Origin: Natronomonas moolapensis 8.8.11
GTDB taxonomy: Archaea; Halobacteriota; Halobacteria; Halobacteriales; Haloarculaceae
Reading direction: 5' to 3'
DNA length: 64,000 nt
NCBI RefSeq assembly: GCF_000591055.1
Contig: NC_020388.1
Span: 372,001 to 436,000, forward strand
Part shown: positions 11,796 to 19,169 of the stretch, piece by piece
Position numbering within the stretch: the first letter of the stretch is position 1
Layout of the letters: each line of letters begins with the position of its first letter
The notes under the pieces: model-generated
Seen by the model: the letters and a program-made list of their open reading frames with translations, nothing else
What the model was told of the DNA's origin: nothing
The model's database searches: none
Translations under genes and position numbers: made by a program

Positions 11796-12752
11796 TCATC
11801 GATCGATCCCGCCGCCGTCCTCACTCGAGACGAGCGACCGGACCGCTTCGGCTGGAACGCTCGCCATGTCGCCTTCGGTGGTTCGCTTCAGCGCGGCCGT
11901 TGCGACGCCCCACGCCAGCGCGTCCGGGACGTCCTCGCCGGCCAGCCGGCGCGCGAGATAGCCGCCCACGAGGGCGTCCCCGGAGCCGACCGGGTCGACC
12001 GTGTCGGTCTCGAAGGCGGCCTGCTCGTGGACGGCGCCGTCGTCGACCGCGAGCGCGCCCGCCTCCCCCCGCGTGACGACGACCTGCTCGAAGCCGTACG
12101 CCCCGGCGAGTTGCCGGGCGATATCCTCGGCGTCCCCCTCGATTCCGAACACCCGCCGGCCGTCCCGCTCGGCGACGAACAGCACGTCGACGTGCTCGAG
12201 GAGGCCTGCAAGCGTCCGTTCGGCCTCGCGCTCGGACCACAGCTTCGACCGGTAGTTGACGTCGAAGGCGGTGGTGACGCCCGCCTCGGCGGCCACCGCG
12301 AGTAGCGTTTCGGTCGTCTCCGCCGCCTGGTCCGACAGCGCCGGCGTGATCCCCGACGCCAGGAACGTCTCCGCCGTCCGGACGACCGACTGTGGGAGCT
12401 CGGTCGGTTCGAGGCTCCGGATCGGCGTTCCCGCCCGGTCGTAGACGACGGTCGGGTCCCGGGGGGCGCTCCCGTGCTCGAAGTAATAGGTGCCGACGCG
12501 GCCCTCGTCGGTCCGGACGACCTCCGGGTCGACCCCCTCGCCGCGCAGGGCGTGGACGACCCGTTCGCCGAGGGGCGACCGCGGGAGCGCCGAGAGCCAC
12601 ATCGTGTCGGTCCCGAGCGCCGCGGCCGCGGCCGCGACGTTGCTCTCTGCGCCCCCGACCGCGACGTCGAGGCGGTCGGTCCGCGAGAGCCGGCGGCCGC
12701 GGGGCGGGGAGAGCCGCAACATCGCCTCCCCGAAGGTGACGAGGTCGCTCAC
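11796..12752 (-). CDS. kdgK: 2-keto-3-deoxygluconate kinase (PfkB family)
   Basis: Phosphorylates 2-keto-3-deoxygluconate to KDPG in the semi-phosphorylative Entner-Doudoroff pathway. It is a PfkB-family sugar kinase of 318 residues: the N-terminal motif GGAESNVAAAAAALG and the C-terminal signature DTVDPVGSGDALVGGYLA with the catalytic Asp. The start is GTG at 12752, overlapping the 3' end of the dehydratase gene by 4 bases, so the pair forms an operon. The assignment to KDG rather than another ketose rests on the neighbouring dehydratase, aldolase and glucose dehydrogenase genes. Confidence 0.9.
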   Translation of the reverse strand: MSDLVTFGEAMLRLSPPRGRRLSRTDRLDVAVGGAESNVAAAAAALGTDTMWLSALPRSPLGERVVHALRGEGVDPEVVRTDEGRVGTYYFEHGSAPRDPTVVYDRAGTPIRSLEPTELPQSVVRTAETFLASGITPALSDQAAETTETLLAVAAEAGVTTAFDVNYRSKLWSEREAERTLAGLLEHVDVLFVAERDGRRVFGIEGDAEDIARQLAGAYGFEQVVVTRGEAGALAVDDGAVHEQAAFETDTVDPVGSGDALVGGYLARRLAGEDVPDALAWGVATAALKRTTEGDMASVPAEAVRSLVSSEDGGGIDR

Positions 12753-13984
12753 GCGTCGTCGAAGAGCGTCTCCCCGTCGACGAGGTGTTCGCCGACGGCG
12801 TTCATATCGAGCGTCACCCCGAGTCCCGGACGCTCCGGGACCTCGATCCGGCCGTCCTCGATGACGTCCTCCTCGACCAGTTCGTCCCACCACCCGAGTT
12901 CGTAGGAGTGATACTCCACGGCCAACGCGTTCGGGATCGCCGCCCCGACGTGGGCGCTCGCCATCGTCCCGACCGGCGAGGCGACGTTGTGCATGGCGAC
13001 GGGGACGTAGTACTGGTTGGCGACGTCGGCGATCTTGCGCGTCTCGCGCATCCCGCCGACCTTCGGCAGGTCTGGCGCGACGATGTCGACGCCGCCGTCC
13101 TCTATGAGTCGCCGGTGCTCGGTGACGCGATAGCGGTTCTCGCCGGCCGCGATCGGCGTGACCGTCGACTCCGTGACGTCCGTCTGGACCTCGAGGTTCT
13201 CCGGGGGAACGGGGTCCTCGAGCCACCAGACGTCGTGTTCCTCTATGGCCGCGGCGAGGCGCTTTGCCGACCCGCCCGAGAACGTCCAGTGACAGTCGAA
13301 GGCGACGTCCGCGCGGTCTCGAACCCGCTCTGTGACCCGCTCGACGATCTCGGCTTTGTGTCGGATCTCGCCGGGCCGGAGGTGGCGGTTCGCCCGGTCT
13401 TTCTCGTGGCCCGAGGGCACGTCGAGATCGAACTTCAGCGCGTCGTAGCCCAGCTCCTCGACGACCCGTTCGGCCTCGTCGGCGCACGCCTCGGGGTCGG
13501 CTTCCGCCTCGGTGTGGCAGTCGCAGTAGACGCGGACGTCGTCGCGGTACTTCCCGCCCAACAGCTGATACGCCGGCACGCCGAGGAGCTTCCCGGCGAG
13601 GTCGTGCAACGCGAGTTCGATCCCCGAGATCGCGGTGACCGTGACGCCCTCGACGGAGCCCTCCCCGGACGTCTTCTGGATCAGGTGCTCGTAGAGGCGG
13701 TCGATGTCGAGGGGGTTCTCGCCGAGGAGAAACGGCGTCATCCGCGCTATCAGCTCGGGGACGCCGGCACCCCAGTAGGCCTCGCCGGTCCCCGTCACGC
13801 CCGCGTCGGTGTACACCCGGACCAGCGTCCACGGGAAGTTCCCGTCGACCATCGTCGTCTGGACGTCCGTGATCTCGACGTCGCGGGCCCCCCGCGAGCC
13901 AGCGAGCCCCATCGCCTCCCCGGAGAGGTCCCGCATCGTGTACTCCGCGTTCGGGTCGTGCAGCGAGCCGTAGTCGGGGCTCAT
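12749..13984 (-). CDS. gnaD: D-gluconate dehydratase (enolase superfamily)
   Basis: Converts gluconate to 2-keto-3-deoxygluconate. The 411-residue protein has the mandelate-racemase/enolase architecture: N-terminal capping domain (VEITDVQTTMVDGNFPWTLVRVYTD), KFDLDVP barrel strand, and metal ligands in VAFDCHWTFSG, WWLEDPVPPEN and AAGENRYRV. A His (AMHNVASPVG) is placed as general base. Sister enzymes act on xylonate; gluconate is preferred here because kdgK overlaps the gene and kdgA and gdh follow. Transcription probably starts from the nearest box of the TATA array, 34-40 bases upstream of the ATG. Confidence 0.88.
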   Translation of the reverse strand: MSPDYGSLHDPNAEYTMRDLSGEAMGLAGSRGARDVEITDVQTTMVDGNFPWTLVRVYTDAGVTGTGEAYWGAGVPELIARMTPFLLGENPLDIDRLYEHLIQKTSGEGSVEGVTVTAISGIELALHDLAGKLLGVPAYQLLGGKYRDDVRVYCDCHTEAEADPEACADEAERVVEELGYDALKFDLDVPSGHEKDRANRHLRPGEIRHKAEIVERVTERVRDRADVAFDCHWTFSGGSAKRLAAAIEEHDVWWLEDPVPPENLEVQTDVTESTVTPIAAGENRYRVTEHRRLIEDGGVDIVAPDLPKVGGMRETRKIADVANQYYVPVAMHNVASPVGTMASAHVGAAIPNALAVEYHSYELGWWDELVEEDVIEDGRIEVPERPGLGVTLDMNAVGEHLVDGETLFDDA

Positions 13985-14009
13985 CTGCCCGCCACCCCGC
14001 CTCCGGCCC

Positions 14010-14135
14010 GGCCGTGATTTATAAGTCCAGAGTCGGGGTTTCGGTCTCCTCGGCCGTGATTTATAAATGCCGCGGCGGGGCCTCGGGATCCCCGGACGGG
14101 ATTTATAAACCCCGTCCCCGCGTTCGTCCGCTCGG
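14010..14135 (-). repeat. 42-bp phased TATA-box array between gnaD and kdgA
   Basis: Three degenerate units each carry GG(C/A)CG(T/G)GATTTATAA. The TTTATAA cores lie at 14018, 14060 and 14102, exactly 42 bases apart. A fourth, unphased TTTATAA is at 14250. The first core is correctly placed for gnaD on the minus strand. The remainder of the 364-base gap (13985-14348) holds no gene that I can support. Confidence 0.7.
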
Positions 14136-14348
14136 TGCCGTCCGTGTCGGTCGTGTTCTGTGTGTGGATCATGCGTTCGTTTCCCGTCGGTGTGGGCGCG
14201 GCTCCCGCCGGTCCGACGGGAGTGCTCGTCCGCGATCGACGCCGGTCCGTTTATAAGGGTTCGCCGGCCCGCGGGCCACGCCGGTCCCCGTACGGATCCC
14301 GCCGCGGCGGCCGGTGTGTCGCCCCCCGCGTCCTCGCGTGTCGTCCAT

Positions 14349-15278
14349 CTATATCAACCCGAGGTCCGCGAGTTCCGTTCGCAGTCGCTCGCGGCCGTCG
14401 TCGTCCATCGTCCGGAGGGGCGCACGCAGGCCGCCGACGTCGAACCCCGGTTCCCGCAACGAGAGTGCGGCCTTGACGCCCGCCATGTACGGTCCCCGCT
14501 TGAGCGCCGTCCGGACGTCGAAGACCGTCGACTGGAGCCGCCGCGCCTCGGTCTCGTCCCCGTCGACGTGGGCGTCGTAGAGCGACGCGACGAGCCCCGG
14601 AAAGACGTTGGCGACGGCGCTGACCAGCCCGCCACACCCCAACTGCAACCCGGGGAGCAAAAGCGAATCCGAGCCGACGAGAAACCGCAACTCCGGGTTG
14701 GCGTCGATCGCCTGCGCCAGCCACGGGACGTCCTTCGAGGAGTCCTTCAGGCCCGCGACGCCGTCGACGTCCGCGATTCTCGAGAGCGTCTCTAGCGACA
14801 GCCGGTTGCCGGTCTTGCTCGGGATGTGATAGACGTAGACGGGTACGTCGACCGCCTCGGCGACGGCCCGGTAGTGGGCGACCGCCCCGTCGCCGTCGAG
14901 GGGATAGTAGTACGGCGTGACGGCGACGACGCCGTCGACGCCCGCCCCGGCCGCGTGTTCGGCGTGTTCGACCGTTTCGCGGGTGCTCGGCGCGCCGACG
15001 CCGGCGATCACCGGCGCGTCGACGCCCCCGGCGACGGCCTCGACGACCCGACGGCGCTCCCCCGCGGTCAACAGCGCGAACTCGCCGTTGGTCCCCAGCG
15101 GGAACACGGCGTCCGCGCCGCCGTCGACGACGAAGCGCGCGTGGGCGACCGTCGCGTCCGTATCGAGGTCCCCCGCCGCGTCGAAGGCGGTCAGCGTCGG
15201 CGGGACGACCCCCGAAAGCTCCGGGGCTGCCCCGGGCTCGGTTCCGCGATCCGCGTCGGCGTCCCCCGGATCACCCAT
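14349..15278 (-). CDS. kdgA: KDG/KDPG aldolase, DapA (DHDPS) family
   Basis: Cleaves 2-keto-3-deoxy(6-phospho)gluconate to pyruvate and glyceraldehyde(-3-phosphate). The DHDPS-family signature is clear: GTNGEFALLTAGERRRVVE, the Tyr segment VDVPVYVYHIPSKTG, and the Schiff-base Lys in GVAGLKDSSKD. The product is 309 residues from the ATG at 15278; a further in-frame ATG at 15317 would add 13 poorly conserved residues. Substrate is inferred from the adjacent dehydratase, kinase and glucose dehydrogenase. Like kdgK-gnaD it is on the minus strand but separated by 364 bases, so it probably has its own promoter. Confidence 0.87.
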   Translation of the reverse strand: MGDPGDADADRGTEPGAAPELSGVVPPTLTAFDAAGDLDTDATVAHARFVVDGGADAVFPLGTNGEFALLTAGERRRVVEAVAGGVDAPVIAGVGAPSTRETVEHAEHAAGAGVDGVVAVTPYYYPLDGDGAVAHYRAVAEAVDVPVYVYHIPSKTGNRLSLETLSRIADVDGVAGLKDSSKDVPWLAQAIDANPELRFLVGSDSLLLPGLQLGCGGLVSAVANVFPGLVASLYDAHVDGDETEARRLQSTVFDVRTALKRGPYMAGVKAALSLREPGFDVGGLRAPLRTMDDDGRERLRTELADLGLI

Positions 15279-17956: not shown

Positions 17957-17977
17957 GACCCGGTCTGAGTGTCACGT

Positions 17978-19036
17978 ATGGCCGACGAGGAGTTGTCCGG
18001 TGATCTCTCGCGGTTGGGCGAGCGCTTCGACTTCGGCGAGTACGAGATCGGCGCGTACCTCGCCGTCCTCGAACACGGGAGTCTCACCGCCTCGGAGATC
18101 GCCGAGACGACGGACATCCCCCAACCCCGGGTGTACGACACCGTTCGAAGCCTCGCCGACAACGGCTTCGTCGAACTCCGCGATTCGCGACCCCTCGAGG
18201 TGCTCGCGGTCGATCCCGAGGAGGCCTTCGGCGACGCCCGCACGACCCTCGAAGAGTTGATCGAGAGCCTCGAGTACCGATACACCGCGCCCTCCCGGGA
18301 CGCCGAGGCCGTCTCGCTCGTCACCTCGCGGCGGACCATCCTCCGGTACGTCGAGGACGTCATCGCGAGCGCCGACTACGAACTCGTCCTCTCGTTGACG
18401 CCCGACCTCCTGGGTCGCTTCGAGTCCGAACTGACGGCCAAACAGGACGCCGGCGTCACGATCGAGTTGCTCCTCTCGCCGAGCACCGACGTCCCCGATC
18501 CGGATTGCTTCGATTACACGCGCGTCGCGACAATCGCTCGCTCGCGACGCGGCGTCACGACGCCGCTCGTCGCCGTCGCCGACGGGACGTACTCGGTGTA
18601 CACCACGCGCGCGGCGTTGCGGAGTCGCGGCGACGACTACGGCGTCGTTTTCAACCGTTCGGAACTCGGCTTTCTGGTGTTGGGGCTGTTGAACACGGTC
18701 GTCTGGCCGTCGTCGACGACGCTGGCCGAGAGCCGGCGCGAACGCCCGTTCCCGCGGCGGTACGCGACGATCCGGCGTTGCGTGCGCGACATCGAAAACG
18801 GCGATGGCCGGTTCTACGCCTCCGTCCGCGGCCGCGACGTCGAGTCCGGGCAGTTCCGGACCGTCGAGGGGGCGGTCGTCGACATCAGCGCGAGCGTCGA
18901 CCGCGGGACCGCCGCCATCACGCTCGACCTCGGCGACAAGACGCTGGACGTCGGCGGCCAGGCCGCCGCCTTCGAGGACATCGAGGCCCACGAGTTGGTC
19001 ATCGACCGCGAGGCTCCGCCGGCGCTCGACCCCTAA
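17978..19036 (+). CDS. trmB: TrmB-family transcriptional regulator
   Basis: A 352-residue sugar-sensing regulator. The N-terminal winged helix (about residues 8-75) contains YEIGAYLAVLEHGSLTASEIAETTDIPQPRVYDTVRSLADNGFVEL. It is followed by a coiled segment and the TrmB effector-binding region (EAVSLVTSRRTILRYVEDVIASADYELVLSLTP), ending in a beta-rich C-terminal domain. In Halobacterium a TrmB protein controls gluconeogenic and glycolytic genes in response to glucose. Its position between gdh and gapN-pyk strongly suggests that it regulates this cluster. Confidence 0.92.
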   Translation: MADEELSGDLSRLGERFDFGEYEIGAYLAVLEHGSLTASEIAETTDIPQPRVYDTVRSLADNGFVELRDSRPLEVLAVDPEEAFGDARTTLEELIESLEYRYTAPSRDAEAVSLVTSRRTILRYVEDVIASADYELVLSLTPDLLGRFESELTAKQDAGVTIELLLSPSTDVPDPDCFDYTRVATIARSRRGVTTPLVAVADGTYSVYTTRAALRSRGDDYGVVFNRSELGFLVLGLLNTVVWPSSTTLAESRRERPFPRRYATIRRCVRDIENGDGRFYASVRGRDVESGQFRTVEGAVVDISASVDRGTAAITLDLGDKTLDVGGQAAAFEDIEAHELVIDREAPPALDP

Positions 19037-19074: not shown

Positions 19075-19169
19075 GCCGCCCCGAGCGTCGCGTGTCCCTT
19101 CGTGTCGTCGGCCCGGTAGCCGCCCCGAGCGTCGCGTGTCCCTTCGTGTCGTCGGCCCGGTAGCCGCCC
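19075..19169. repeat. 44-bp tandem repeat (2.2 copies)
   Basis: Two perfect 44-base copies (19075-19118 and 19119-19162), starting GCCGCCCCGAGCGTCGCG, are followed by 7 bases of a third. They lie in the 314-base gap between trmB and gapN. Perfect identity in intergenic DNA points to a recent slippage or duplication event. Apart from this and the gapN promoter the gap holds no gene. Confidence 0.85.

Follow-up and report, generated by a model that had tools for sequence, protein, structure and literature searches.

Three TATA boxes 42 bp apart between kdgA and gnaD of Natronomonas moolapensis: a possible species-specific multi-TATA promoter region

Archaeal promoters are usually treated as consisting of one TATA box and one transcription start. 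A literature search on tandem or multiple TATA boxes in archaea, covering papers outside subscription, gave halovirus HF2 as the one close case and no description of helical TATA spacing in haloarchaea. According to the available part of the HF2 paper, promoters of this virus lie in regularly spaced repeats (PMC8707807). As in the array described here, several TATA boxes arise from a motif that is repeated ahead of a start in a haloarchaeal setting (available part of PMC8707807). For Haloferax volcanii, the accessible sections of PMC4983044 give genes with two starts as 7.5% of 1851 expressed genes; more than one promoter per gene, as is proposed below for gnaD, is ordinary in haloarchaea. In the following, the window is the whole 64,000-nt stretch of N. 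moolapensis DNA that was analysed.

Sequence and surroundings of the array

A motif scan of the window found TTTATAA on the plus strand at 14018, 14060, 14102 and 14250, in the gap between kdgA and gnaD. The first three follow one another in steps of 42 bp, in units that read GGCCGTGATTTATAA, GGCCGTGATTTATAA and GGACGGGATTTATAA. Tandem Repeats Finder reported 14007-14109 as a repeat with a period of 42, 2.5 copies and a score of 122 (rank 3 by score among 106 rows). Scan and repeat finder therefore agree with the sequence-only reading that had drawn attention to cores 42 bp apart in a degenerate unit. On both strands of the window together, TTTATAA occurs 13 times, whereas 100 dinucleotide shuffles gave 0.10 occurrences on average.

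The array is an imperfect tandem repeat in which the 18-bp cores were kept and the 24-bp spacers drifted. The gene-proximal core 1 (14007-14024, minus strand) reads CCCGGCCGTGATTTATAA on the plus strand and TTATAAATCACGGCCGGG on the minus strand, and includes the candidate gnaD TATA box. Core 2 (14049-14066) reads CTCGGCCGTGATTTATAA and core 3 (14091-14108) reads CCCGGACGGGATTTATAA; neither is assigned a strand, nor are spacer 1 (14025-14048) and spacer 2 (14067-14090). Boxes 2 and 3 can be read as TTTATAA on either strand. Units 1 and 2 match at 17/18 core and 15/24 spacer positions (Fisher p 0.026), units 2 and 3 at 15/18 and 7/24 (p 0.0007), and units 1 and 3 at 16/18 and 8/24 (p 0.0004). 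Part of the spacer is common to units 1 and 2, hence a tandem duplication is the most likely origin of the array, and some of the spacing needs no explanation beyond duplication. The two 42-bp spacings each correspond to a multiple of ~10.5 bp, i.e. 4.0 DNA turns, which places the array in the phased class described below. The fourth core that had been listed with the others is present as TTTATAA (14250-14256, no strand assigned), but lies beyond the 42-bp repeat, 148 bp on, which is not a multiple of 42, and has no conserved flank.

The exact extended core TTATAAATCNCGNCC occurs in the whole genome only at the three array units, and a search for further copies of the array elsewhere in this genome gave only 34 weak partial DNA matches (best E 0.027). 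A copy of a dispersed intergenic repeat of the kind seen in Halorubrum is therefore not supported. The Halorubrum-type repeat was seen in G099 and G093 (L191-L210; the genus includes Halorubrum aquaticum), and it reaches tens of copies in some genomes. The Halorubrum TTTATAA pairs are numerous but represent copies of this repeat, with spacings of 34 and 51 bp, out of helical phase. At one locus of G099 (L200, C5:86374-86468), five TTATAAA boxes follow one another in exact 22-bp steps with near-identical spacers.

The surroundings form an Entner-Doudoroff cluster; growth on glucose has been reported for one strain of the species (PMC3623002). The gnaD-like gene (12749-13984, minus strand; enolase superfamily, MR_MLE domains) lies directly downstream of the array and the kdgA-like gene (14349-15278, minus strand; DHDPS/KDG aldolase family) directly upstream. 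Nearby are a KDG/KDGal kinase gene (11796-12752, minus strand; haloarchaeal equivalog, 455.9 bits, cut-off 440) and trmB (17969-19036, plus strand; haloarchaeal equivalog, 591.6 bits, cut-off 500). No NCBIfam equivalog for gnaD or kdgA scored above its cut-off, and both gene names are taken from the sequence-only reading. As both genes flanking the array lie on the minus strand, it is not a divergent promoter. The gap that separates trmB from an aldehyde dehydrogenase gene includes a perfect 44-bp tandem repeat (19075-19169, 2.2 copies) that has no TATA box.

The gnaD start and the locus in relatives

The boxes of the array match the TTTATAWA-type TATA element of the haloarchaeal core promoter. 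Box 1 lies 40 bp from the gnaD ATG, as compared with 26-32 bp between TATA box and start for clear leaderless starts in a sample from the same genome. The distance thus exceeds the leaderless mode, which counts against a promoter, and a short leader of perhaps ~9-15 nt would be needed. The fit of box 1 to the gnaD start that had been claimed is therefore only a rough one, similar to that of the MC1 promoters considered below, in which 42-46 bp separate the proximal box from the ATG. In the available part of the Haloferax volcanii data, leaderless transcripts make up 72% of coding transcripts, and leaders of at least 6 nt are rare within the tabulated 20 (PMC4983044).

It had also been suggested that the array might serve the regulator TrmB. 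The operator motif TACT-N7-8-GAGTA (taken from the accessible part of PMC4158304) is missing upstream of gnaD at 13901-14348, and likewise upstream of gnaD in Natronomonas sp. LN261; a TrmB operator is thus not supported as the identity of the array. A TrmB-type operator is present within 120 bp upstream of gnaD in 20/80 relatives vs 0/480 control windows. In these 20 it stands just before gnaD as TTACT-N8-GAGTAA (e.g. L104, L111, L118, L121, L126 and L128).

At E <= 0.001, gnaD has matches in 59/60 related genomes, a good number of which are distant family members, and the region upstream of gnaD was compared at 80 loci of named genomes, LN261 included. LN261 is the nearest relative (L010 and L076), with gnaD 94% identical, and keeps the order kdgA then gnaD. 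None of TTTATA, TATAAA and TTATAA occurs between kdgA and gnaD in LN261. Measured from the gnaD ATG, the ATG at 14172 is exactly 84 bp farther away than its equivalent in LN261, a difference of 2 x 42 bp or two units, with an ambiguous placement of the gap, as many alignments score alike. A TTTATA pair was found in the 300 bp before gnaD in 0/80 relatives, and any TTTATA or TATAAA in 2/80.

The sequence-only reading had proposed to compare the number of units in related genomes, and would have given the array up if the extra units were absent from all relatives and a single start site were used. The former is the case in all relatives examined, which goes half of the way. The absence of the units is taken to reflect a species-specific gain rather than a meaningless array.

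Paired TATA boxes in the genome and upstream of MC1 genes

The pattern TTTATA-N15-45-TTTATA, with box spacings of 21-51 bp, was searched for throughout the genome, the reversed pattern serving as control. It revealed 64 pairs vs 10 for the control (about six times commoner); after merging both-strand duplicates, 58 pairs at 38 loci were obtained. Their spacings peak at 21-22, 31-34 and 40-44 bp, i.e. with a period of 10.5, and 36/58 pairs fall within 1.6 bp of 21, 31.5 or 42, as compared with 29% if spacings were uniform. When each locus contributed a single pair, comparison with a smoothed null gave a median p of 0.0003 at 10.5 bp and of 0.002 over periods 8-14; with the gnaD array excluded and a uniform null, p is 0.0002 and 0.005, respectively (permutation tests with spacings entered by hand from the listings). 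The gnaD array is one case of a genome-wide tendency of paired TATA boxes to share a DNA face.

Within the genus the tendency is uneven. G004 has 38 pairs vs 8 for the control, with weaker phasing (p 0.005 to 0.12 at 10.5 bp, one pair per locus), and 12 other genomes of the genus gave a p of 0.12 (n=48 among the matches listed, G001, G019, G003, G011 and G008 being outside the count). This weak or non-significant phasing in the rest of the genus counts against a promoter. LN261 has only 5 pairs vs 3, hence the expansion of pairs is not common to the closest relative. N. moolapensis has four TBP genes (8 half-matches at four places; C1:129994, 272864, 1446328 and 1452101), as compared with one each in G004 and LN261 (2 matches at one place each); G016 has 7 matches at four places. 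The idea that arrays follow extra TBP genes was not supported, as G004 has arrays yet TBP matches at one place.

Sorted by gene context, 8 of the 38 clusters lie between convergent genes, 8 between divergent and 14 between tandem ones, and 8 within called frames, according to a simple and crude GC3-based gene caller (the cluster at 754184 was called tandem, and by eye adjoins a convergent ferredoxin-like gene). Promoters would avoid convergent gaps, and with ~1/5 of clusters located there the class need not consist entirely of mRNA promoters; the occurrence of clusters outside promoter positions (8/38 convergent) is evidence against a promoter. RTTTATAWAY is matched by 50/94 boxes in 33 arrays vs 11/46 single boxes (p 0.001), five low-GC loci of 38 having been dropped and boxes within one array not being independent. 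This sharper motif might point to a different binding protein. The idea that all arrays of the genome have a flank in common was rejected, as only the 10-bp box is shared. Eight stretches that had been chosen for their clusters were listed separately from 12 unbiased ones. Near-perfect tandem repeats of 33, 32 and 44 bp with one TTTATATA box per unit were seen at C1:1176869, C1:2645129 and C1:549659 (L179, L233 and L213, respectively). At C1:1241253-1241361 (L219), about six TATA-like boxes ~21 bp apart with unrelated spacers occupy a 236-bp gap between convergent genes.

A pair of TATA boxes was further found upstream of the gene for the MC1 chromosomal protein in 13 genomes, 8 from the genus of the window and 5 from another family (L165-L169 and L240-L247). 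The boxes are 42 bp (8 genomes) or 43 bp (5 genomes) apart, although the searches left the spacing free (27-57 or 21-51 bp). The 24-nt spacers have a mean identity of 38% and are mostly unrelated; two of the 13 loci (L243 and L244) are nearly identical. MC1 was confirmed by PF05854 for the N. moolapensis protein and by sequence likeness for the others. As these 13 promoters were selected for having the pair, they document a fixed spacing among promoters with a pair rather than a general occurrence of such pairs: the exact pattern gave no match in 189/195 genomes of the order, and among the matches listed 12/20 genomes of the genus have no MC1 TATA pair. The MC1 promoter of N. moolapensis itself has no upstream box, which counts against a promoter at the array.

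The geometry of ~42 bp common with the MC1 promoters and the 10.5-bp rhythm of the pairs in this genome make a chance spacing of the array unlikely. The earlier suggestion that the boxes are helically phased, on one face of the DNA, is supported by these two lines of evidence.

Explanations of the array and comparison with known systems

Our tentative preference, held with a little less than even confidence, is for a multi-TATA promoter region that is specific to this species and directed into gnaD, arose by tandem duplication and has kept its spacing in helical register. A 42-bp stretch with a TATA element would have been tandemly duplicated between kdgA and gnaD, and the 18-bp TATA-bearing cores would then have been retained while the spacers drifted. 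TBP may bind several boxes on one helix face, and the region would be read leftwards, on the minus strand, into gnaD. The gene-proximal box is predicted to set the gnaD start with the short leader considered above, while the distal boxes may provide extra upstream starts or aid TBP/TFB loading. As a result, gnaD would gain a promoter of its own, separate from the kdgA transcript, with a putative effect on its expression. Judged from the sequence, the array itself is probably a multi-box promoter, and the purpose proposed for it at gnaD is a candidate role. Likewise, we infer TBP binding, the start sites, the effect on expression and selection for phase at the gnaD locus itself.

The first of two main alternatives, itself rather unlikely, is an operator array, in which a regulator or nucleoid protein distinct from TBP would occupy the 18-bp core (TATA with the CGGCCGTGA flank), or the RTTTATAWAY class, cooperatively along one DNA face and would repress or shape the region. 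The flank beside the TATA box is kept as well (10/11 and 8/11 matches), helical phasing suits side-by-side binding, and both the clusters between convergent genes and the sharper 10-bp motif in array boxes are in line with such binding. However, the restriction of the extended core to the three gnaD units leaves no regulon sharing the flank, no candidate protein was found, and the box fits the general TATA consensus.

The second, a neutral minisatellite, i.e. a tandem duplication within an intergenic gap of an operon that leaves boxes 2 and 3 idle, is unlikely. It would account for the spacer positions common to units 1 and 2 and for the lack of the array in LN261 and all other relatives examined, and several other clusters in this genome are plain 32-, 33- or 44-bp tandem repeats. 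It does not accord with the better conservation of cores than of spacers (p 0.026 to 0.0004), with the phasing over 38 loci, many of which have unrelated spacers, or with the spacing of the MC1 pairs, which is kept without sequence conservation.

Two further explanations are very improbable. The first is a small repeat-bearing protein from the 63-codon frame through the array (13981-14172, minus strand), which reads FIN(H/P)(G/V)R three times, 14 codons (42 bp) apart, and whose TGA overlaps the gnaD ATG, suggestive of translational coupling; the corresponding frame of LN261, with 35 codons, is shorter by exactly 84 nt and likewise has the ATGA overlap, but the repeated residues are absent from it, the N. 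moolapensis frame has no Pfam or NCBIfam match, and the differences between the two species are not concentrated at third codon positions (12/16/10 at positions 1/2/3, vs 18/9/80 in gnaD), hence the frame was judged non-coding and the protein rejected. The second, antisense RNA started rightwards to kdgA from the plus-strand TTTATAA of all four boxes, finds a parallel in several other clusters that point against neighbour genes, but the near-palindromic boxes give no direction and no plus-strand gene or start was identified at the array.

Returning to the multi-box promoter region, a broader proposal is conceivable though doubtful. Some haloarchaeal genomes may carry RTTTATAWAY arrays held on one DNA face over 2, 3 or 4 turns, at promoters and between convergent genes, to which TBP or another protein of TATA-like sites would bind cooperatively in a polymer-like or bent assembly. 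A promoter rule so far undescribed, 'helical spacing of TATA boxes', would then cover both the gnaD array and the MC1 pair. Should the helical register of TATA boxes indeed be maintained, joint action of neighbouring boxes must follow, which would open cooperative TBP binding or multi-box promoters to testing in haloarchaea. A clean test case is offered by the MC1 promoter, where the 42-43-bp pair is conserved, and the gnaD array would illustrate how a multi-box region can arise within one species.

Compared with TrmB-controlled haloarchaeal promoters (available part of PMC4158304), gnaD of N. moolapensis and LN261 has no operator, which is often present just upstream of other haloarchaeal gnaD genes. 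Fixed helical spacing is not described in the accessible sections on the two-start genes of Haloferax volcanii (PMC4983044), whereas the gnaD boxes are 42 bp apart. According to the part of PMC8707807 available, the HF2 repeats are 12 bp long and 14-15 bp apart (~1.5 turns) and are kept across related viruses, whereas the gnaD cores are 18 bp long, 42 bp apart (4.0 turns) and absent in relatives; in HF2, function is ascribed there to no box but the one with the right distance. The MC1 promoters have two boxes and no repeated flank and are kept between species, whereas at gnaD there are three boxes, their flank is repeated, and the arrangement is restricted to one species. They nevertheless resemble the gnaD array in having boxes 42-43 bp apart, a similar geometry between box and ATG, and a free spacer.
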